A stretch of DNA of 64,000 nt from Pontixanthobacter gangjinensis. Lineage in GTDB: Bacteria; Pseudomonadota; Alphaproteobacteria; Sphingomonadales; Sphingomonadaceae. The position numbers were made by a program, and so were the translations under genes. Numbering within the stretch: the first letter of the stretch is position 1; each line of letters starts with the position of its first letter. The notes under the pieces are model-generated. The model ran no database searches. It was not told the DNA's origin and saw only the letters and a list, made by a program, of their open reading frames with translations. The stretch is from positions 496,001 through 560,000 of the forward strand of contig NZ_WTYS01000001.1 in assembly GCF_009827545.1 (NCBI RefSeq), read 5' to 3'. Positions 52,971 to 64,000 of this stretch are shown here, in pieces.

Positions 52971-53047
<77 letters not shown>

Positions 53048-53081
53048 TAATTTCAATGACTTAGTTTGAGTGTTTAGGTTG

Positions 53082-53251: not shown

Positions 53252-55465
53252 TCAGAAACTGTCATTGTCATCAAAAGCCAACGAAAGTTTAGCTGCCCTT
53301 GGCGCTAATGGATCGTCACTCGCCGCCAGTTTCTTCACCCGCGTCCGCGCATCATCGAAATTGACGAAGCTTTCGACGTTTTGACGCGTCAAAACCGAGC
53401 GGGTGCCTCGATCGCTGCTGTTGCGAACACTCGTCATCTTTTCGAGAGCTTCAACCAGCCCCTCAGACGTCCTAGCATATTCTTCAATTAGCGCTCTGGG
53501 TGAGTCTTCGTCACCAGCCTGTCGCCAAGCGAAGAGAAGATCGATTGGGCGGGATGTCGCGAGAAGCTCTTCTGCGCTCATTGCATTGAAGCGTGCTAGC
53601 ATGGCTTTGAAGATTAAGTCTAGCTCGGCAGCAGTGAATATCCATTCACTCTCTGGTTTCCGTCTGGTTCCATAGCGACCATGGAAGAAAGTTTCTCGGC
53701 GCATCACTGACGTCAACCATCCAATAGCTTCGCCTTCCTCGAACATCGTTTTGACAGTGTTGTTGCGATCGGCTGGATCAACACGCCCAATGCCGACTTG
53801 GGTCGTAGCTTCTGCGCGGTCCCACAGTGTTGTTACCCAATCCAAAGCCATCGGCCTAACCTCATGCGCTTTGTCCATGTAGTTCGAGAAAGCGATCAGG
53901 AGAGGTTTACAATGTTCGCCAGTTAACCGCTCAGGATCGGCTCCCTTGAGGCGCTCCAAAAGTAAGTCTGCTTTTCCAAAGCCTGCATGTAACTCGACAT
54001 CATGCAGCCGAAGTAGTGTTTTTCCGATATCGCTTGCCCCAACCTTCGCTGCCTCCCAAAATTCATCCACATCGCCCTGAGTCAAAGCGTGTTTGGGTCC
54101 GGTCAGAGCGAAATATAGTCGGTAGTGATCTGGACTGGCTAGACGGCGAGCATGGATCGCAGCATTCCGATCCGCCTCGTCAACGAGCTGGTAAAGATTG
54201 AAACTACCTCCCTCTTCATTGTAGTCGCAGTCTGCACCAGGTAGCGGCTCGGAAAAATAGTAACGGTAAGTGAGGTCAGAAAAATGGCCTGATGGGACCG
54301 TAGCTAGCAACGCAGAATGCTGAGCTACTTTTTCCACCTTATCCACTCGGACGGTCCCCAAGCTCATTATCGCGTTTGTCGCGCAATATTGTTCAATCCA
54401 GCGATACAGTTCAGGATTGCCGTCCCTGATGAGCTGCAACCACACGAGGTCTGCCAAGTCGCCACCGACTGCTTCAATTGGCGGCCAGAAGAAACGTAAG
54501 GAATCAAGAACTCTGTTGACCGAACGAGGCGTATTGAGCCGCCGTCCCCCTTCGAAGTCGATAACGCCTTTCAACCGGGAAAGCTCATCCTCGTTCTTTG
54601 TGAAAGCAAATCGACGCAGCTCATCGCTGAACCACTGCCGAAGGCGAAACGCCTCCGGCATCGGCACCATCACAGTTAGCTGGATGATCTTCTCGAGAAA
54701 CCCTCGCCCGTCTTCGACCCCCGCGGCATGCTGAATACTCTTTGCAAGCACTTCACCGTCGAAGCAAAGCAGGTAAGTGACGTTTGGAAAGTCCGCGACC
54801 GATCTTGCAAGCCGGAGGACTTCGATCGCCTCTGCTGGTTCCAGCCGATCGACATCATCGATAGTAACTATGAAGCGATGATTCAGCTCTTCAAGCGCCT
54901 TTACTAACTTGCCCTTTAGTTCGCTGAGGGGAGGCTCAGGCGGTTTAGCACTGACAGCGTTGCCGATAGCCGTCACGCCCTTCCCAAACCATTTGATAGG
55001 CGTGAACGCCGTTGCATCGCCAACAAGCTCAATCGCTGCACCAGTCCGGCCCAGCCCGCTCACGAACTTTCGCAGCGCTTCCGCCGCAGTCTTTGCCTTC
55101 TGCTTTGAGACGCCTGTTGCATCACCAGCTGCAAGCTCGACGCGGTTCATTTCGTCTGACAGCGCAGCAAAGAGGCTCGCGAGCAACGTATCTCGGTTGC
55201 CAATGACCCAAGGGCGGAAATTGATTATCGAAGGCTTGCGTTCGGCTGGCAGCTCCTTCAATTCCATTTCAATCAAATGAAGCAGACTGGATTTGCCCGA
55301 CCCCCATTTCCCATCAACACCAACAACGAGCCCTTTGTCAGAGGCATGATCCACTAGGGAAGTGGCGAGTCGTGCTGCTACATCGGCAAACCCTAATCGG
55401 TCATTGCCCCCCGCCTCTAAGGGCCGATCTCCTGAAATAGCTGCGCCGCTCATCGCTTTCTCCAT
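53252..55465 (-). CDS. KAP-family P-loop NTPase
   Basis: A 737-residue NTPase. Walker A is GKWGSGKS at residues 52-59 and Walker B is FIVTIDDVDRL near residue 210, followed by the sensor-like block VTYLLCFDGEVL. These are KAP NTPase (PF07693) marks, a STAND-like group used in several anti-phage systems. The transmembrane insert seen in many KAP proteins is weak or absent here, so the protein may be cytosolic. The C-terminal 350 residues are helical and unrecognised. It is separated by 192 bp from the 160-aa gene upstream. Confidence 0.85.
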   Translation of the reverse strand: MEKAMSGAAISGDRPLEAGGNDRLGFADVAARLATSLVDHASDKGLVVGVDGKWGSGKSSLLHLIEMELKELPAERKPSIINFRPWVIGNRDTLLASLFAALSDEMNRVELAAGDATGVSKQKAKTAAEALRKFVSGLGRTGAAIELVGDATAFTPIKWFGKGVTAIGNAVSAKPPEPPLSELKGKLVKALEELNHRFIVTIDDVDRLEPAEAIEVLRLARSVADFPNVTYLLCFDGEVLAKSIQHAAGVEDGRGFLEKIIQLTVMVPMPEAFRLRQWFSDELRRFAFTKNEDELSRLKGVIDFEGGRRLNTPRSVNRVLDSLRFFWPPIEAVGGDLADLVWLQLIRDGNPELYRWIEQYCATNAIMSLGTVRVDKVEKVAQHSALLATVPSGHFSDLTYRYYFSEPLPGADCDYNEEGGSFNLYQLVDEADRNAAIHARRLASPDHYRLYFALTGPKHALTQGDVDEFWEAAKVGASDIGKTLLRLHDVELHAGFGKADLLLERLKGADPERLTGEHCKPLLIAFSNYMDKAHEVRPMALDWVTTLWDRAEATTQVGIGRVDPADRNNTVKTMFEEGEAIGWLTSVMRRETFFHGRYGTRRKPESEWIFTAAELDLIFKAMLARFNAMSAEELLATSRPIDLLFAWRQAGDEDSPRALIEEYARTSEGLVEALEKMTSVRNSSDRGTRSVLTRQNVESFVNFDDARTRVKKLAASDDPLAPRAAKLSLAFDDNDSF

Positions 55466-55657: not shown

Positions 55658-56140
55658 TTAGTCCAGAGCTTCTCGTTTCCATCGGATGTCTAAATACCTG
55701 CCCCTTAAAAGCGTAATGAGTTGTCGCTCAGCTTCGAATCCAGCATCAGTGTTTTGCTCAAGAAAGATTCTGACGAACAAACTGACAATCTCAGGGCGTT
55801 CATTCCATCCGCTGACCGTTTGATGAAGCCATCGAAGCCAATCCGTCATTGTTGAGGAGGGTTTTTCCACTAGTGCGCCAAGTAGTGTCGGGTCAGGTGG
55901 ACTAACTTGATGACGCCAAACTGCGGCAAGCAAATCGTGCGCATCTTGGATTGTTCGATGATCTACCGGGCGATCTTCTTCCCACTCGCTTTCCCACAAG
56001 CTGATACCCACGATTGTGCAAGCGGAGAGGTAATGACTGCGACAACCAGTATAAATGATCCTTAGCGCTTCGTTGTAAGAGTCATGCTGCTCGCGAGCGA
56101 GTGAGAGATCGTCCCCCTCAAATTGGTCGCAAATTATCAT
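55658..56140 (-). CDS. Unknown 160-aa protein of the defence block
   Basis: A soluble, helical, acidic protein without a recognised domain (landmarks CRSHYLSACTIVGISLWESEW, in part, and DWLRWLHQTVSGW). Its ATG overlaps the stop of the GIY-YIG nuclease gene (ATGA), so it is translated with that operon and is its last member. A small accessory or immunity-like subunit is possible, but this is only inference. Confidence 0.6.
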   Translation of the reverse strand: MIICDQFEGDDLSLAREQHDSYNEALRIIYTGCRSHYLSACTIVGISLWESEWEEDRPVDHRTIQDAHDLLAAVWRHQVSPPDPTLLGALVEKPSSTMTDWLRWLHQTVSGWNERPEIVSLFVRIFLEQNTDAGFEAERQLITLLRGRYLDIRWKREALD

Positions 56141-57318
56141 TGAGGCACGATGCGGGCTTGACTGGGATCGTATCGGTAATTGGTAATCGAGCCATCACGG
56201 ATGCGTTCGACAGCTTCATCGATAGCGGTCAGCGGCACAAGGAACCACTCGCGGGGTTTGATTACCGTCCCGAAACGATCTGGGATTTCAAGATCGAGTT
56301 GTGCTGCTCCGAACACCCTATGGATCAGCTTTTCGAGCTTCGTGCGGTTGATGTTGAATAGCTGATATTGGGCGACGATCTCGACATTCGCCATGAGGAA
56401 GGTTGGTTGAAGATGCGCTCCTGCAATGCGCTTCTCGACTTTCATATTAGTAACGCCAATCTTGTGCACCAGTTCACGATGCTCGGCGACGACCGGATGA
56501 TCAGATTTGCTGCGCAGGACATATATGATCCCGCTGGCCTCATCGCCTTCCTCGGCGTGACCTGAAAATAGCGGACCAGCCTCGGGCTCCGTGATGCGAC
56601 GACCAGCATCGTCCTTGTTTAGCGCCCGCTGCAACGACCGCATGAGCATCTTGCTCTGCGTGCCATTGTCGAAGATCACGCGAAGGCGGGCATCCGAGCG
56701 CCCCTGATCATTCGTGAAAATCTCGTCCATTTCGGCAACGAAGGCCGTCTGCCCGCCAACTATGAAGAACGCGCCGGGACGAATCTCAGCCTTCACTTCG
56801 AACGGTCTCGTTTCCCGCGCACCTGACTCAAGCTCACGCTGGACCTGCTCGAACAGCGGTTCGAACTTTGCGAAGTCTTCGCATTTCTCGCGATTGGCTA
56901 CTTCCTCAGCGGCGCGACGCTCTTCTGCTGTGGGCACATGGCGAAGCACCCGAATATCGTCCCCGCCCGCAGGCTCGATGCCAAGCTCGGCCAACAAGGA
57001 ATCGTCATCAATCTCGTCAGCCTGCACAGCGTCATTGTCCCGAGTCCCCACGAGCAAGCCATGCTTGTCCATCCCGGCGAGAAGCTGACGGCAGTCTTCA
57101 AGTTCACGGAGCCGATCAAGGCGCACTGCATAGAGGCGTTCGAAAATGTCCCGATCCTCGCCATGCTGCGGCGCGCGTCCGTGCTCTTCGAAGAACCGGA
57201 CAATATCCTCCAAACCGGCGATGATCCGCTCTTCGCGCGGCGTATAAGTGCGTGCCTTCTGCTGCTCGGCCTCAACGCCGAGTTCAGCAAGCAGTTCGTC
57301 GTCAGATAATTCAGCCAT
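56137..57318 (-). CDS. T5orf172-type GIY-YIG nuclease
   Basis: A 393-residue protein with a C-terminal GIY-YIG domain of the T5orf172/Mug113 type, residues about 285-390: GIIYVLRSKSD, HKIGVTNMKVEKRI, NRTKLEKLIHRVFG and PREWFLVPL carry the expected Tyr, Gly, Arg, Glu and Trp positions. The N-terminal half has a short DDxLLAELG(V/I)E peptide twice (residues 6-16 and 105-115) and a helical block RIIAGLEDIVRFFEEHGRAP. The start at 57318 overlaps the helicase stop by 8 bp. It is the probable nuclease partner of the helicase. Confidence 0.85.
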   Translation of the reverse strand: MAELSDDELLAELGVEAEQQKARTYTPREERIIAGLEDIVRFFEEHGRAPQHGEDRDIFERLYAVRLDRLRELEDCRQLLAGMDKHGLLVGTRDNDAVQADEIDDDSLLAELGIEPAGGDDIRVLRHVPTAEERRAAEEVANREKCEDFAKFEPLFEQVQRELESGARETRPFEVKAEIRPGAFFIVGGQTAFVAEMDEIFTNDQGRSDARLRVIFDNGTQSKMLMRSLQRALNKDDAGRRITEPEAGPLFSGHAEEGDEASGIIYVLRSKSDHPVVAEHRELVHKIGVTNMKVEKRIAGAHLQPTFLMANVEIVAQYQLFNINRTKLEKLIHRVFGAAQLDLEIPDRFGTVIKPREWFLVPLTAIDEAVERIRDGSITNYRYDPSQARIVPQ

Positions 57319-59383
57319 TGGACGCCTGTGCACGGTAACGAGCGAAGGCTGCAACCCCTTCGGCCATCCGCTTTTCCCAAGCGTCTTGGGAGGTGATCTC
57401 GGGCAGGCGACCGCGCTCCTTCTTGAATCGCAATGCGCGCTCGGCAAGATCGCGTGCCTCTTCGGGCAAAATCTTGACCTTCTTGGCCGAGATCACCGAC
57501 TGGACCTGCTTGAGCACGGCTTCATTCATGGATTTAGCCAACACCGCATAGGCAGCCTCGAAAGGGTTGATGCTGTCGATGAGGTCGATGTCGAGATCGC
57601 GGACATCCATTGCGAACTTGCGCACCCCGTCGATCAGAGCCGTGTTCACCTTCTCGTCGTCACCCTTGCCAACATCGAGACCGCTGGCGATCTCCTTTGC
57701 CTTCTGGGTGAGGTTGAGCGCGGCAATCGCATGCTGGCGAACAGACTCCTGATCTTCTCCGCTCAACTCTGGGTATCGATCGCGCACGATCTTGCCCATT
57801 TTCAATTGAGTCAGTTCCTGCGGGACCGTCTCCTCGTTGAACATGCCCTGCTCAAGGTTGTTCTTATCCTGCACGAACTGCGTGATCACCTCGTTGAGGT
57901 CTTCCTTGCAGATACGCTGTGCCTCGTCGCTCTTAGGCTCGACCAATCCCTTAATCTCGAAGTGAAGTTGGCCGGTAGCCTCGCGCACACCCACATTCGT
58001 CTCGCCCTCCCTATAGCCTCCCGGACCGTAATCGAAGTCTTCGATAGGTCCGGTATCCTTCGGAGTGAAGGTGAAACGCGGCGCGAGCACCTGCTCCATG
58101 AGCAGGCTGGCTGCGATGGCTTTTAGCGTATCGTTGATCGCCCCGACCACTGCTGCTTCCGATGCATCGGGCTCAGCGATCAGGTTGGTGAAAGTGGCGC
58201 TTTCCTTTCCGGGAGCATCGCGGGTTGCGCGTCCAATTATCTGGATGATCTCGGTAAGGCTAGAACGGTAACCGACCGTCAGGGCGTGTTCGCACCAAAT
58301 CCAATCGAAGCCTTCCTTCGCCATGCCGAGCGCGATGATAATATCGACATGATCGCGGTCGTTCTTGTGCGCCGGGTCTTTAAGGGCGTTCAGCACTGTG
58401 CTGCGCTTTGATCCGTCACTGTCATCAACAAGATCAGCGATCTTGACCACACGGCCATCAGGCATCTTCACATGATGGAACCCGGTTTGGGGATCGGCGA
58501 ATTGCCATTCCCCCAGATAATCCATGATCTCGTTTACTTCTTTGATTTTATCCTTCGTGCTTTCGCGCGAATTGACCGAGGGAATGTGGACGATGGTCTT
58601 CTTGGACGGATCAAGGACGGCCTCGATCGCGGTGAGGTAGCGACCGGTGTAGAAGAAATAGCCGATGTTGAGCGCCTTGAGGTGCTCGTAGCCGTTCAAC
58701 TGCTCGTAGTAGGTGTAGGTGACCGGTTCGAACTTGTTCTCATCCTCGGGGGTGAGAACCGGCACTGCATCGCCCCGGAAGTAGCTTCCGGTCATCGCGA
58801 CGATATGCGCTTTATCGCGGCGAATGAACTCGGCCAGATGGCTCCCAAGCCGGTTGTCCTCGCTCGCCGACACATGGTGGAACTCGTCCACGGCGATCAG
58901 CCGATTATCGAATGCCTCAACGCCAAGCTGCTCGACTGCGAAACGGAAAGTCGCGTGGGTGCAGACAAGAACTTTGTCGCCGCTGGCGAGGAACTGGCCA
59001 ACAGCTTTGATCTTGGAAGGATCAACCCTCTCTTCATCTACCCCCGGCGCATTGCACAGGTTCCACTGCGGCTTCACCACCCAATCCGACCAGAAGCCGA
59101 AAGTGCTGAGCGGCTCATCCATGAAGGAACCGCCGATCGACTTCTCAGGCACGACGATGATCGCCTGTCTTAGGCCCTGATTGTGCAACTTATCGAGCGC
59201 GATGAACATCAGCGCACGGGATTTGCCTGAGGCCGGTGGTGACTTGATCAGCAAATACTGCTCGCCGCGCTTGGCGTAGGCGCGCTCCTGCATCGGGCGC
59301 ATGCCCATCTCGTTCGACTTGGTGGACGCACCAGTGCGAGCGGTCTGGAAGGAGACGGCAGGGATGGGTTTTGAAGTGGTCAT
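57311..59383 (-). CDS. DExH-box superfamily 2 helicase
   Basis: A 690-residue SF2 helicase. Motif I is SPPASGKS (48-55), motif II DEFH (166-169), motif III MTGS (197-200), motif V near GMAKEGFDW and motif VI QIIGRATRD (381-389). The C-terminal 280 residues are helical and end in a block, RFKKERGRLPEITSQDAWEKR, similar to one near the N-terminus of the adjoining GIY-YIG nuclease. Start and stop both overlap neighbours (4 and 8 bp). It probably moves along DNA like the motor subunit of a restriction enzyme. Confidence 0.9.
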   Translation of the reverse strand: MTTSKPIPAVSFQTARTGASTKSNEMGMRPMQERAYAKRGEQYLLIKSPPASGKSRALMFIALDKLHNQGLRQAIIVVPEKSIGGSFMDEPLSTFGFWSDWVVKPQWNLCNAPGVDEERVDPSKIKAVGQFLASGDKVLVCTHATFRFAVEQLGVEAFDNRLIAVDEFHHVSASEDNRLGSHLAEFIRRDKAHIVAMTGSYFRGDAVPVLTPEDENKFEPVTYTYYEQLNGYEHLKALNIGYFFYTGRYLTAIEAVLDPSKKTIVHIPSVNSRESTKDKIKEVNEIMDYLGEWQFADPQTGFHHVKMPDGRVVKIADLVDDSDGSKRSTVLNALKDPAHKNDRDHVDIIIALGMAKEGFDWIWCEHALTVGYRSSLTEIIQIIGRATRDAPGKESATFTNLIAEPDASEAAVVGAINDTLKAIAASLLMEQVLAPRFTFTPKDTGPIEDFDYGPGGYREGETNVGVREATGQLHFEIKGLVEPKSDEAQRICKEDLNEVITQFVQDKNNLEQGMFNEETVPQELTQLKMGKIVRDRYPELSGEDQESVRQHAIAALNLTQKAKEIASGLDVGKGDDEKVNTALIDGVRKFAMDVRDLDIDLIDSINPFEAAYAVLAKSMNEAVLKQVQSVISAKKVKILPEEARDLAERALRFKKERGRLPEITSQDAWEKRMAEGVAAFARYRAQASNG

Positions 59384-60567
59384 GGTTTCCAGTTCTCAGC
59401 AGCTTTAACTGCTGCTTGCCAAGCGCGTTTGATCGATGGTTGGTCAGCGAGAAAGAATTCACCGCCGAGTGACTTTCCTTCCTGACAGAGCAAGTCCTTC
59501 ATCGCATTCTCCCCCGCTATGGCGTGGTTCGAGGAAGGGAATGGATCACGCTTCTCGGCATAGGTTGAGTTTTCGATGTGCCATCCGAACGCGCATGCAG
59601 GTAGGGCCTTATTATGAGCGGCGCGCCGGGTTTGGGGGCTAACGGAGAATCCAACTTTCACGATCGAGCGGCCCTGAGCCCCATATCCAAGGAAGCTATC
59701 CTCATCGCCATGCAGACGAAGGATGTAGAGGTGCTTCGGCCCTTCGGCTTCGCGAACCATGTATCCTGACTGCGAAACTGGTCCCGGCCTGCTCGGCTTG
59801 AGCACAGTTTCTGCCGGCCCCGGCATCAAAGCTTCGACTGGCAGTCCGCCATATATGTCGGTTTCGAAGATTGGGAGCTTCAGGAAGCGTTGAGCTTCCT
59901 GAAAAGTGATCTGCATGCCGTATGCACCAATCGCCGTCCCGTTTTTCCCTCCATTGTGTGTCTCTGGAAAGATGTCTCGAACGAAAGGCCTTTCCTCCAG
60001 GGGAATTTTCCAAGCCCGGATTGCTTTGAGCCCATGAATCCATCCGTTTACGCGATCAGGATCGTTTCGTTCTTCTTCATGGCGGGCAGGAGCCAGATAG
60101 TCCCACTTGGTGCCGTGGATGTGTGTCTGCTGCTGCATCCCAAGCACTCGCAATCGCTCGCTTGGATCGGGCGCTTTGGATGTGCCTGCGACAATAAGCA
60201 GAGCACCCGGCTTGCTTTCCCGAACGAATTTATCTCGCGCGAATGCTTCGGTGAAGCCAAGGAAGCCCCAATTTTCTGGCGTGAACCCGTGGAAGCTTTT
60301 GAGGAAGACCTGCGGCGGATCGGTTTTGAATGCTGCTTCAACATTCAATATGGGGTTGAGCGCTTGACCATCTGCGTGGGCCTTCACGAATGAATCGACG
60401 CTCCCATAGGTTTGCACGACCTTTGTCGGAGCAATCTGGCTGATCACACGTCCGTTCGTGGTCCAGCCATGCGCTTCGAACATCGCATCAAGGCCGCCAT
60501 ATTCATCACGCGCAATCTGATTGATCGCTTGCTTATCCCACCCCGGTTGACGGCTTTCTTGTTTCAT
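59380..60567 (-). CDS. GIY-YIG-like nuclease with possible PUA/EVE-type reader domain
   Basis: A 395-residue protein. The C-terminal part has a GIY-YIG-like series: YILRL (281-285), VKVGF (303-307), RR (314-315), Glu353 in AIAGENAMKDL and GGEFFLA (368-374), the order seen in T5orf172-type domains. Residues about 100-190 (WGFLGF, KPGALLIVAGTS, RLRVLGMQQQ, NGWIHGLKAIRAWKI) resemble a PUA-like/EVE fold, which in other proteins reads modified bases. Both assignments are by eye. It overlaps the helicase gene by 4 bp. Confidence 0.6.
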   Translation of the reverse strand: MKQESRQPGWDKQAINQIARDEYGGLDAMFEAHGWTTNGRVISQIAPTKVVQTYGSVDSFVKAHADGQALNPILNVEAAFKTDPPQVFLKSFHGFTPENWGFLGFTEAFARDKFVRESKPGALLIVAGTSKAPDPSERLRVLGMQQQTHIHGTKWDYLAPARHEEERNDPDRVNGWIHGLKAIRAWKIPLEERPFVRDIFPETHNGGKNGTAIGAYGMQITFQEAQRFLKLPIFETDIYGGLPVEALMPGPAETVLKPSRPGPVSQSGYMVREAEGPKHLYILRLHGDEDSFLGYGAQGRSIVKVGFSVSPQTRRAAHNKALPACAFGWHIENSTYAEKRDPFPSSNHAIAGENAMKDLLCQEGKSLGGEFFLADQPSIKRAWQAAVKAAENWKP

Positions 60568-60648
60568 TCAGTTCAATCTTCCATCACTCTTTGTCGAAGG
60601 CGTTTTCAGCCTTATTTGAAGGCTTCATCCGCTCAATTCGTCTTTCCA

Positions 60649-60767
60649 ATCAAAACTCGATCAAAACTAAATTTGCATGCTTTCCAAAGGGAATTCCTTC
60701 TTTTTCCAGTCTTTTCCTATTTCCAAAGCTGGCTTTCAGGGCCCAAAATCAAAACACGATCAAAACT
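60649..60767. promoter_or_regulatory. Two near-identical 20-bp sites upstream of the GIY-YIG/helicase operon
   Basis: The sites at 60649-60668 and 60748-60767 differ at one base: ATCAAAAC(T/A)CGATCAAAACT. Each is itself a double ATCAAAAC, so four copies lie in the 209-bp gap. On the operon strand they read AGTTTTGATCG(A/T)GTTTTGAT, 82 and 181 bp upstream of the ATG at 60567. Spacing is 99 bp start to start. They are candidates for operators of a regulator of the second half of the block. Confidence 0.55.
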
Positions 60768-60776
60768 TTCCACAGG

Positions 60777-62270
60777 CTAAGCCCAATGCGGAACATAGCC
60801 AGCACGCGGATGCTCAGGGTCGGCGGGACGAATTTGTCCTTCGTCCAACGCTAAACGAATAACCGCAGAGGCTTGCGAAGCATTGTGTTCGGCAATCCCA
60901 AAGCGTTCGCGCAAAGTCGAATTCGTCATGCGCTCGCCACTGACATATTTTAGCGCCGCGTGCTGGTAGCAAGCTCGCACGCGTTCCTCCTGGGTCATGT
61001 CTGCGAAGCGGCGTGGGGCAAAAAGTGTTGCGCGCACGGCAGTATCGACATTCTGGAAATCGGGCGGAGGCAGTTGATGCAACTCAGCCGAAGCTAGAAC
61101 CTTATCGATCCCGGTTCCTTGCTCCTCGCAAAGACGCATCCGGCGCATCAGCGATGCCAGCGCTTCGTTCCGCGAGCGTGGCGGTGAATCGAGGAAACGA
61201 TCGGGACTGACCAAAGGCTCGCCCGGATTAGTGATCTCAAGCCGATCCTTGAACAATTCGATCATCGGTCCAGCACCCGTGATCGTCATATCTTGGTGGA
61301 TGAGCGCGTTGGCTATCAACTCGCGAATGGCGATCGATGGGTAGAGAGGTTCCTCCTCTCTGAACGCCTTACCGATATGTTCGTTACTGGGCAGCAGTCC
61401 ATCGATGTAATCGGCGAGGCCAGAAAAGCCGCAGGCATAGCCTTTCTGCCCGTCGCGACGATGGGTAACCTTGGTCGCTCGGTTATTCCCCTCATACGCG
61501 ACGAACCGAACACCTTTGCGCGCAATCGAAGGGGAAAAGTCCGCCAACTGCTTGGCAAATAGAATCGCGCCCAGATTGGTAATGTTCCACTTGCCGCCCA
61601 CATCGGCCTCGATCAGGCGATCGGCCTTCAAACGGTCGAAGATCCCGTCGCGATTGTCGGGAAGGGGCTGGTCGGTGAGTTCAAAATAGCTGGTGTGATC
61701 CAGCCTCGCCAACACCTCATCACCGCTGAGGAACTGTGCGGCCACACCGGTTTCCCATGCATAAGGTTGCAGCTTCGACCACAAGAGCTTCTGCCGCTCG
61801 GGATGATCGGAGAGGCGCGGTGTGGCACTGCCAATGCGAATATAGGGCGTCCGGTCGAACTCCACCGGGCTCGTGGCCGCCGCAGGTATTTCCAGCAGAA
61901 CAAGCCGGAGGCCATGATAATCGAGGCTCTTGAAGCAGAAAGCGATAGCCGGTTGCAGGTGCTGGCTCAGCCAGAATTCAAGCGGCTGATCCTTATGCTT
62001 GGCCGATGTCGGCTCAAAGCTTGTGCCGACAGGCTCATGGTCGCCATCCCGAATACCCCAGACGACATAGGCAAAATGCTGATCGGCGAGCCGTGCGGAA
62101 TTGGACAATGCCGAGATCAGCTTGCCGATCATCTCGCCGTCGTGCTTATTTTCCTTGAACTCGACCCATGTTGTTTCAGCGGGTAGCGCACGCAGATCAT
62201 CGATCAGAGCAAGCTGCCGTGTCTGCTCGGTCTGCGGACCGGGTGGCGGTGGCGGGGTATCGTTGCTCAT
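60777..62270 (-). CDS. AlbA_2/Schlafen-type ATP-binding protein (COG2865-like)
   Basis: A 497-residue protein. It begins with a Pro-rich stretch, then an AlbA_2 (Schlafen) domain (TTWVEFKENKHDGEMIGK, IPAAATSPVEFDRTPYIRIG), a GHKL-like ATPase part (SIAIRELIANALIHQDMTI, DRLEITNPGEPL, CEEQGTGIDKVL) and a C-terminal winged helix (YVSGERMTNSTLRERFGI). The family is usually annotated as a DNA-binding transcription factor and is frequent in defence islands. Its ATG overlaps the stop of the gene before it (4 bp). Confidence 0.85.
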   Translation of the reverse strand: MSNDTPPPPPGPQTEQTRQLALIDDLRALPAETTWVEFKENKHDGEMIGKLISALSNSARLADQHFAYVVWGIRDGDHEPVGTSFEPTSAKHKDQPLEFWLSQHLQPAIAFCFKSLDYHGLRLVLLEIPAAATSPVEFDRTPYIRIGSATPRLSDHPERQKLLWSKLQPYAWETGVAAQFLSGDEVLARLDHTSYFELTDQPLPDNRDGIFDRLKADRLIEADVGGKWNITNLGAILFAKQLADFSPSIARKGVRFVAYEGNNRATKVTHRRDGQKGYACGFSGLADYIDGLLPSNEHIGKAFREEEPLYPSIAIRELIANALIHQDMTITGAGPMIELFKDRLEITNPGEPLVSPDRFLDSPPRSRNEALASLMRRMRLCEEQGTGIDKVLASAELHQLPPPDFQNVDTAVRATLFAPRRFADMTQEERVRACYQHAALKYVSGERMTNSTLRERFGIAEHNASQASAVIRLALDEGQIRPADPEHPRAGYVPHWA

Positions 62271-62698
62271 ACCGTCACCTTCTTATCGGTTATCTTGTAT
62301 TCTGAAAGGAAAACAAGACCCCAAGCCGGTGGCTGGGGCCAATGGCGCTGCCCGTGATCCCGCCAGCGCTCACTCTCCTCGTTGAGAGCCCCGCTGGCTA
62401 TGACGGTCGCGAGCAATTCGTCGTGCGGATATACGAAGCAATCATCGCCACGGAGGAAGGCGATGTGAATGTCCTTACCGATGTATTTCTTATCGATGCA
62501 GAAACGCCCTTTCAACTGCACCTTGAGGAAAGTCTGACCATCTATGTGGCATGCAATGAAGTCTGCCCCCTGCCAGTCGTCGGTGAGGCGTAGGCAATTG
62601 AAGCCATAATCGGCGAGACGCGCGGCAACCTTGTGGAAGTTGTAGTTCTCCTGCTGCCGCGAGTTGAGTTGAGTGTATGGAACGGCCTCGAAAATCAT
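62267..62698 (-). CDS. PD-(D/E)XK nuclease-like protein
   Basis: A 143-residue protein whose layout fits a Holliday-resolvase-like PD-(D/E)XK fold: a first helix (NSRQQENYNFHKVAARLADY), then Asp46 in WQGADFIA and, after a strand, Gln61-Leu-Lys63 in LKVQLKGRF. The second acidic residue is replaced by Gln, as in some active restriction enzymes of this fold. It may be the small nuclease of the methyltransferase operon. It overlaps both neighbours by 4 bp. Confidence 0.6.
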   Translation of the reverse strand: MIFEAVPYTQLNSRQQENYNFHKVAARLADYGFNCLRLTDDWQGADFIACHIDGQTFLKVQLKGRFCIDKKYIGKDIHIAFLRGDDCFVYPHDELLATVIASGALNEESERWRDHGQRHWPQPPAWGLVFLSEYKITDKKVTV

Positions 62699-63468
62699 GC
62701 ACTCGCGGCCTTTTCAGCCTTCTCTTTGCGTAACGCCCGGTCGAGCCACTTCGGCACTTCGGCGACCTGAGAAAAGAAGATATTTTCCGGCAGTTCGCGC
62801 CAGAATGATGTGATGGCCTCGGCGAAGCGGGTGAGGTTGTCGTCCGTCACAGTCAATGCCGAGAAGTCGAGCGCCGAAACGAAGAAGGCAGGAAGGCCGC
62901 CGTTCTTTCCAGCAAGGTCCGGTGCGATCGCTTTCAAAGTCTCGAAGGACCGCCCGGTGCCGTGCTTGTAGACATTGGTGACCAATTGGCAGCGGTTCAG
63001 TTCGTCGAAGAATCCGCGAGCGCGAGCATCCCAACCGCATTTCTCAAAGAAATCGAACAGGTCGTCAAACTTTGCGGACCACACTGCTGCGTGCAAATGC
63101 TTGCCGTAACCGTGGTGGCCAAGCTCCTTTCCAAGCCAGTCCCGAACCTGCTTTTCCCACTCATGAAACATTCCGGCAATGATGCTCAACCGAGTGTTGT
63201 CCCTCAGATCAGCAAGGCTTTGATAAAAGACGATGCTCTCGTCGTTTGCTTGCTCATAATCTGACCCGGGATCGTCGTAATCAGGGTTGAATGGCTTGGC
63301 GGCCAGCCAAGCGTCTGCGAAAGCGTTAGCGTCAGCCTCCATGCTCTCATCAGTGAATTGGTCTAGTAGGCGGCGCTTGGCCTCCGACACATAGAACTCG
63401 TGGTTGGCGATCAGGAAGTCGCGCGTTGGGCCCCACATTTGCAGGAAGACGCGATCAGGATCCTTCAT
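62695..63468 (-). CDS. Unknown 257-aa helical protein next to the methyltransferase
   Basis: A soluble, largely helical protein. Landmarks are LSIIAGMFHEWEKQVRDWL and ELNRCQLVTNVYKHGTGRS. The paired helices and the NVYKHG turn recall HEPN proteins, but the exact R-x4-6-H motif is not met, so I leave it unassigned. Start and stop overlap the neighbours by 4 bp each. Confidence 0.6.
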   Translation of the reverse strand: MKDPDRVFLQMWGPTRDFLIANHEFYVSEAKRRLLDQFTDESMEADANAFADAWLAAKPFNPDYDDPGSDYEQANDESIVFYQSLADLRDNTRLSIIAGMFHEWEKQVRDWLGKELGHHGYGKHLHAAVWSAKFDDLFDFFEKCGWDARARGFFDELNRCQLVTNVYKHGTGRSFETLKAIAPDLAGKNGGLPAFFVSALDFSALTVTDDNLTRFAEAITSFWRELPENIFFSQVAEVPKWLDRALRKEKAEKAASA

Positions 63469-64000
63469 GCCGCTGCCTTCTTGCCGGTCATTTTGGTGTA
63501 GAGTTCAAACAGCTTTTCGAGGCGCTCGGTGTCGTTGCGGAAGCGGCGACCGATGTAGATGCGTTCGAGCACCTCGTCGTTTTCCTCATGCGCGCGGCGA
63601 AGGTCTTCGGGCATGGCCTCGGGATCGTAGAGGTCGGCGATGGTCGCCGGGAAATGCGCCTCGCGCGCGAGGAGAATGTTCTCGGCGCAGCGGGTGAGGT
63701 CGGCCTTGTTTTGCTCGGTGAGCTTGGGGAGCGGGAAGGTATGCCATCCCATCTTATTCGAATAGCTAAAGTCAGTCTTCATCCGACCGCATACAGCCCC
63801 GATCCAAACGAGGTGCAGCCGAGAAGCAATTATTGCGAGATTGAATGTTTCGGGGTCATAAATCGCATAGGTCAAATTGGTGGCTCTCCACCGCTCATTG
63901 AATAGATCAATAGGCAGATATTCTCGGTTTTCCGAGCTTCGGATGGGAATAACCATCACGCTATGTCGAGGAGCCTTCATCTCCCGAAATTGATGTGGTC
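63465..64000 (-). CDS. MmeI-type class I DNA methyltransferase, C-terminal part (cut by window edge)
   Basis: The visible 178 codons are the C-terminal recognition and tail parts of an MmeI-like methyltransferase: REMKAPRHSVMVIPI, SRLHLVWIGAVCG, DFSYSNKMGWHTFPLPKLT and the tail LERIYIGRRFRNDTERLEKL. An in-frame ATG at 63980 exists, but homology-like sequence continues upstream of it (PHQFRE) to the edge, so the gene is partial, not short. Full-length relatives carry the SAM-binding and NPPF/Y catalytic domains, and in some cases a nuclease domain, outside this window. Confidence 0.85.
   Translation of the reverse strand, partial: PHQFREMKAPRHSVMVIPIRSSENREYLPIDLFNERWRATNLTYAIYDPETFNLAIIASRLHLVWIGAVCGRMKTDFSYSNKMGWHTFPLPKLTEQNKADLTRCAENILLAREAHFPATIADLYDPEAMPEDLRRAHEENDEVLERIYIGRRFRNDTERLEKLFELYTKMTGKKAAA

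Follow-up and report, generated by a model that had tools for sequence, protein, structure and literature searches.

A probable split, type I-like restriction-modification operon of the DnmA-YeeB-YeeC kind with an accessory-gene slot in a tRNA-Arg island of Pontixanthobacter gangjinensis

The last part of a 64,000-nucleotide stretch of Pontixanthobacter gangjinensis DNA (the window; positions 496001-560000 of a single-contig genome of 2.89 Mb) holds eight genes, all on the minus strand at window positions 55658-64000, and raises the question of whether they form one machine or a smaller system that carries guests. The first-pass annotation had read them as one restriction-like system of eight genes, most of which overlap by 4-8 bp. 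The layout is as described, with overlaps of 4 or 8 bp at six of the seven junctions, provided that the GIY-YIG nuclease gene starts at 57318, and a 209-bp gap at the seventh (59380-60567 to 60777-62270). The unity did not hold: three of the eight genes recur together in other genomes and the other five do not. We consider the locus quite probably a split restriction-modification system, type I-like and of the DnmA-YeeB-YeeC kind, with an accessory-gene slot and carried on a tRNA-Arg island. Sequence past the window end was read from extracts L002 (window 50001-69000) and L003 (window 64001-83000). The recurring trio is:

63465-64000, continuing to about 66218 outside the window, minus strand: core MmeI-like N6-adenine methyltransferase with target recognition domain, DnmA-like
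57311-59383, minus strand: core DEAD/ResIII superfamily 2 (SF2) helicase/translocase, YeeB-like, 690 amino acids (Pfam DEAD 2.3e-6, ResIII 1.9e-5)
56137-57318, minus strand: core T5orf172/MUG113 GIY-YIG nuclease, YeeC-like, 393 amino acids (T5orf172 8.3e-13, MUG113 1.8e-14)

The methyltransferase gene overruns the window, and its longest frame, 975 amino acids in L002, contains five MmeI domains by Pfam, namely N, spacer, methyltransferase, recognition and C-terminal (MmeI_Mtase 1.9e-112, MmeI_TRD 3e-72, MmeI_N 1.5e-35). The start is likely at window 66218, giving 917 amino acids, because homologues begin MNxVEIE. The protein scores 448 bits against 5hr4 and matches the type IIG model of PADLOC (5.2e-278), while DrmMI and PglX models cover parts of it only (among the matches listed, 25 of 40). 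Its N domain is without the nuclease residues of MmeI (D...ExK), and a model of this domain shows a modest-score resemblance to the beginning of the DrdV chain and to that of HsdR, which would fit a dead nuclease domain. Walker A, DExH and motif VI patterns are found in all 89 helicase proteins longer than 600 amino acids, the window's own included; PADLOC matches of the latter are confined to short parts of the PbeA and Cas3 models. A weak PMBR match near the helicase C-terminus (3e-5, below cut-off) may explain the label 'pseudomurein-binding repeat-containing protein' on some relatives. The longest frame of the GIY-YIG gene opens at a TTG at 57447 (436 amino acids), and the likely start is the ATG at 57318 (393 amino acids). 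Y, H-K-I-G, R, E and E-W-F are invariant in an alignment of 13 core GIY-YIG sequences, and both GIY-YIG patterns are present in 82 of 86 core nuclease proteins.

The MmeI-type methyltransferase, DExH helicase and AlbA_2 ATPase called in the first pass all have Pfam matches above cut-off. Its statement that the locus matches none of BREX, DISARM, Druantia, Zorya and type I also stands. The signature proteins of the first four are PglZ (BREX), DrmA/B (DISARM), DruE (Druantia) and ZorAB (Zorya); none is among the PADLOC matches listed for ten proteins, and no HsdR or HsdS was found by Pfam. The search it had proposed against defence-system hidden Markov models (HMMs) likewise left the trio unnamed, both by PADLOC protein models and by NCBIfam.

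That motor and nuclease are split from an MmeI-type methyltransferase, as the first-pass annotation proposed and as is published for B. subtilis, is supported because, in the sequences compared, a methyltransferase with the MmeI nuclease motif and a pair of helicase and GIY-YIG genes exclude each other. A sample chosen by MmeI profiles avoids selection by helicase; its sources were 190 genomes of the class, searched with MmeI_Mtase, and 398 of the phylum, searched with MmeI_N, with the 13 best loci besides the own genome taken from the former and 40 of 54 above-cut-off matches from the latter (five of the rest were already in the set and nine were left out). Helicase and GIY-YIG were sought by profiles in these 53 loci. 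Both are present in 24 of the 24 loci that lack D...ExK and extend more than 3 kb downstream, and none of the 23 D...ExK-bearing loci with downstream room (21 by pattern, plus L172 and L176, which the pattern missed, by eye) has the two genes. Six further loci, one without the motif and five with it, end too early to judge. The alignment of the nuclease-less methyltransferases is continuous across the N region, with the catalytic columns replaced; mutation of the nuclease residues of MmeI is reported to abolish cutting (PMC4833311).

A quick tree of 50 rows (LG+G4; 49 of the 53 loci plus the window, L118 having been removed by hand and three having no usable stretch) places the 24 nuclease-less rows on one side of a branch with a Shimodaira-Hasegawa-like approximate likelihood ratio (SH-aLRT) support of 90. 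The helicase and GIY-YIG label changes once on this tree and the motif label three times, with L172 and L176 still scored as motif-less. In a mixed set of 93 methyltransferase rows (8 partial) from helicase-chosen loci, the 13 class loci and the window, the motif is missing from each of the 80 full-length methyltransferases that are accompanied by a helicase. One of these loci, L033, has methyltransferase and helicase with no T5orf172 protein at the threshold used. There is slight overlap between the two samples, L118 repeating L035 and L154 repeating L026.

The extent of the conserved unit was read from a helicase-relative search of genome contigs, which gave at least 580 confirmed stretches, the best 80 being kept for co-occurrence counts. 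The methyltransferase is found in 79 of these 80 loci and a T5orf172 protein in 78; the counts for the other genes fall to 8 (395-amino-acid protein), 6 (257), 4 (143), 2 (AlbA_2 protein) and 0 (160). The proposed recurrence of the whole set in other genomes is therefore borne out for the trio and fails for five of the eight genes.

Gap lengths were obtained for 89 of 91 loci, the 89 and L016 and L119, each left out for want of one end, being drawn from 79 of the 80 above, seven of the genome search, the window's own and two Paracoccus plasmids. The gap between methyltransferase and helicase is below 150 bp in 38 of the 89 and larger in 51. At the helicase|GIY-YIG junction, as projected from alignments, no gap exceeds 45 bp (88 of 88 loci). 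Among the 24 trio loci of the second sample, chosen by MmeI profiles, 12 have an open slot and all 24 a tight helicase|GIY-YIG junction. The slot is thus special in its geometry, with insertions at the methyltransferase|helicase junction and none at helicase|GIY-YIG. The window's slot carries four cargo genes, and an eighth gene lies beyond the nuclease:

62695-63468, minus strand: cargo, 257-amino-acid helical protein (invariant N-V-x-K-H-G, alignment of 10)
62267-62698, minus strand: cargo, 143-amino-acid protein with D...QxK, possible PD-(D/E)XK relative (alignment of 10)
60777-62270, minus strand: cargo, SLFN_AlbA_2 + HATPase_c_4 protein, 497 amino acids (Pfam 2.1e-14 and 8.6e-24)
59380-60567, minus strand: cargo, 395-amino-acid protein, GIY-YIG-like by motif only (invariant residues, 6 sequences)
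55658-56140, minus strand: 160-amino-acid protein of no known family, overlapping the GIY-YIG gene by 4 bp, outside the conserved core

Three nuclease-like proteins had been called among the eight. The core GIY-YIG nuclease is solid, and the other two calls stand at the level of motifs. In the 143-amino-acid family D is invariant and QxK near-invariant, and no HMM of Pfam, PADLOC or NCBIfam matches. The supposed second GIY-YIG protein, of 395 amino acids, has invariant L-Y-x-L, K-x-G, R, E and G-E-F-F in its family and one distant plasmid relative annotated as GIY-YIG (27.7% identity), with no Pfam match above cut-off; its profile is unlike that of the core GIY-YIG family (hhalign probability 0.4%). 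The 257-amino-acid protein gives a confident helical structure model without clear structural match and has no Pfam match above cut-off, and the 160-amino-acid protein has no Pfam, PADLOC or NCBIfam match at E 0.1. None of the four cargo genes matches a PDC or HEC model of PADLOC.

Among relatives, 82 of 88 frames picked in open slots share the direction of the operon and group by similarity into 27 clusters, which include some fragments or chance frames; three of the 51 open slots (L013, L043, L083) hold tiny or opposite-strand frames only. The window's own families number, with the window counted, 10 members for the 395-amino-acid protein (4 fragments), 9 in 8 loci for the 143, 7 for the 257 and 3 for the 497. 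Pieces of 65-87 amino acids in the slots of L006, L013, L029 and L069 resemble the 395-amino-acid cargo, like worn-out leftovers. Fourteen of the 20 other cluster representatives match Pfam above cut-off (E 0.01), with RhuM, DUF1016/YhcG, GmrSD_N, Fic, PDDEXK_4, CcdA, CcdB, HEPN, DUF3800, AAA_15, SHOCT, pentapeptide repeats, zeta toxin and YafQ; of the remainder, one is PLD-like below cut-off and five have no Pfam match. At 1e-5, PADLOC matches 9 of the 20 and leaves 11 without a match, with near full-length matches to PDC-S05 (RhuM), PDC-S02 (DUF1016), PDC-S67, SoFic and PDC-S26 and a partial one to HEC-05. In the second sample, two slots of about 7 kb (L156:3747-10797 and L152:2716-9825) share genes of 141, 135 and 159 amino acids and a helix-turn-helix/M78 peptidase-domain protein, and that of L156 also holds a reverse transcriptase (RVT_1 3.4e-18). 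Slot genes are probably further defence genes co-transcribed with the system.

A bolder reading takes the methyltransferase|helicase junction as a dedicated docking slot, where cargo genes that serve several restriction-modification types alike are recruited as a second line beside the core (say, once marking is lost or restriction breaks down); portable defence genes would then form a pool that circulates between the modification and restriction genes of unrelated systems. We regard this as unlikely. As a neighbour control, the second frame of at least 100 amino acids past the GIY-YIG gene, outside the trio, was scanned with PADLOC in 20 loci. Eleven of the 20 match at 1e-5, among them Drt3b, pAgo, GajB, HerA, PD-Lambda-4, a type IIG enzyme and a type II methyltransferase, so that known defence families are no more frequent in the slot than among its neighbours and the trio sits in defence islands. 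The control therefore supports a defence role of the trio and weakens the case for special slot content, and it lowered our already small expectation of a dedicated docking slot a little further. Defence-rich downstream neighbourhoods are seen in L010, L014, L030, L038, L040, L045, L048, L051 and L073.

The plasmid records examined, judged from their own incomplete annotation, make mobility of the cargo clear and reveal no clear fixed tie of cargo families to restriction loci. The 143-amino-acid family occurs in eight plasmid records, of which four were examined; it is the sole slot gene in two Paracoccus plasmids, follows a type ISP gene in Sphingopyxis and has another setting in Enterococcus. 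From the 66 records of the AlbA_2 family, seven were examined: the gene takes the slot position in Actibacterium, lies between the S and R genes of a type I system in Acidovorax and between DUF1156 and PLD-like anti-phage genes in Desulfosarcina, and is away from such genes in Cereibacter (there named MloB), Providencia, Burkholderia and Allorhizobium. The 395-amino-acid family has two records, both examined, one near a type I S gene and one not; for the 257-amino-acid family, none of the three examined out of 125 lies beside restriction genes, and one follows an AbiEii-type gene.

For the trio we infer a division of labour in which the MmeI-like protein would recognise an asymmetric site and mark host DNA by adenine methylation, its N-terminal domain, probably nuclease-like, being kept with the catalytic residues lost. 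On unmarked DNA the separate SF2 translocase would take over from it, load, move along DNA with ATP and bring the GIY-YIG nuclease to cut; the slot between the marking and motor genes takes exchangeable accessory genes, four of them here. MmeI-family enzymes mark one strand according to PMC7261158 and to the title of a 2009 paper by Morgan, so that sparing newly replicated DNA would take an extra rule, conceivably two sites or a collision. Among 78 methyltransferases, mean pairwise identity is 41% in the recognition domain, 64-65% in the N, spacer and methyltransferase domains and 78% in the C domain; helicases average 74% and GIY-YIG proteins 60%, the loci having been picked mostly by helicase similarity, so that the comparison is fair only within the methyltransferase. 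Variable recognition with steady catalysis is a pattern of restriction systems and may be a sign that this one is live.

Three other explanations have to be set against this one. The operon could be a relic, with an orphan methyltransferase in an epigenetic role and a helicase and GIY-YIG pair that no longer restricts, as proposed for B. subtilis, where DnmA methylates DNA (PMC7261158) and deletions within the conserved gene order had no effect on three phages (PMC9973331). The methyltransferase of one relative, G034, has an in-frame TAG, and that of a Ligilactobacillus plasmid is annotated as two genes. Relics should often lose the pair, however, and it follows all the judgeable nuclease-less methyltransferases of the second sample; the helicase motifs and, nearly always, both GIY-YIG patterns are intact, the recognition domain varies most, and deletions in V. 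crassostreae altered phage sensitivity (cited in PMC9973331). A relic is a conceivable but improbable account, which could apply to the window's copy.

Joint action of all eight proteins in a single machine would fit the overlapping junctions and the single strand. It is very hard to reconcile with the presence of the other five genes in 0 to 8 of 80 related loci and with a methyltransferase|helicase junction closed in 38 of 89, and we give it almost no weight. Nor do we give much credence to a modification-dependent trio that attacks methylated or otherwise modified foreign DNA under a regulatory methyltransferase: the tie of the pair to a methyltransferase with variable recognition domain is a better fit to self-marking.

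The split, self-marking system preferred here has its closest published counterpart in DnmA-YeeB-YeeC. DnmA is among the MmeI homologues without endonuclease motif, is flanked by yeeB and yeeC, and prompted the suggestion of a type I-like system (PMC7261158). The window's locus shares with it a nuclease-motif-less MmeI homologue followed by a helicase and a T5orf172 gene, in a mobile-element setting (PMC7261158, PMC9973331), an assignment made by domain content and gene order; MmeI_Mtase and MmeI_N profiles do match a B. subtilis control genome. Here the SF2 helicase lies downstream of the methyltransferase with cargo between, and the T5orf172 gene directly follows the helicase. The four cargo genes and the tRNA-Arg island are the differences; in the published neighbourhood analysis the pair stands at +1 and +2, and no slot is described in the passages considered (PMC7261158, PMC9973331). 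MmeI (type IIL) has the same five domains but joins nuclease and methyltransferase in one chain, with the catalytic D70...E80xK82 (PMC4833311); here these residues are absent, and motor and nuclease are separate proteins.

Type I loci can also embed genes between modification and restriction genes, such as DarTG2 between hsdS and hsdR (PMC12255303), and the Acidovorax AlbA_2 relative, with the order methyltransferase-S-x-R, is akin to the window's embedded cargo. Unlike type I systems, the trio has its recognition domain inside the methyltransferase and its nuclease apart from the motor. PDC and HEC candidate defence genes of PADLOC are described as found by 'guilt-by-embedding' (PMC12988326), and the slot genes that match them belong to relatives and not to the window. 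Extra nucleases are known in BREX loci (PMC12839542); the trio is not described in the excerpts of that paper or of PMC3874165. No account of a cargo slot in a DnmA-type operon was found in the literature searched, although an embedding preprint may hold one.

The eight genes are part of a tRNA-Arg genomic island with a duplicated tRNA end and an integrase, whose left end is marked by:

52971-53047: tRNA-Arg(ccg), by ARAGORN
53003-53048, plus strand: left end repeat, attL-like, equal to the 3' end of tRNA-Arg(ccg) (exact repeat by script)

An identical second copy of this 46-bp end (46/46 bases) lies beyond the window at 69682-69727, beside a Phage_integrase gene at 68383-69543 (Pfam 1.4e-10), so that the island spans 16.7 kb (52971-69727) with its right end outside the window. 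From left to right it holds a PifA-like KAP NTPase gene, the eight-gene block, two small genes and the integrase. The KAP NTPase gene (53252-55465, minus strand), at the tRNA end of the island, matches the PADLOC PifA model over nearly its full length (7.1e-223) and is a second, separate defence gene, PifA being found, weakly, in one of the 80 helicase-chosen loci. The small genes (66794-67351 and 67646-68278, minus strand), between methyltransferase and integrase, encode 185 and 210 amino acids; the former has no informative match in Pfam, and the latter none in Pfam, PADLOC or NCBIfam. In the same-genus genomes G565, G566 and G569 part of the tRNA end recurs at distances of about 8, 10 and 28 kb from the tRNA, and G569 has a 58% identical integrase at the far end, which makes the tRNA-Arg(ccg) site a likely integration hotspot.

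Within the phylum sample no fewer than 19 of the 398 genomes have the trio (16 by fetched loci, and G000, G145 and G154 besides), and by annotation it is also present on plasmids of Bacillota (Ligilactobacillus), Actinomycetota and Vibrio. In the plasmid relatives L131 (2989-3267), L132 (2841-3263) and L178 (2823-3245), genes of toxin-antitoxin type (HigA, VapC and VapC, respectively) overlap the methyltransferase start by 4 bp.

The trio itself is already published, and the operon is known but little studied; the accessory-gene slot is unusually clear here. PADLOC labels the methyltransferase as type IIG, whereas separate motor and nuclease genes accompany every judgeable nuclease-less relative of the second sample, so treating the trio as one system changes the annotation. 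Further accessory genes should be easy to look for in its slot, which has two highly conserved borders, though the surroundings are also rich in defence genes.

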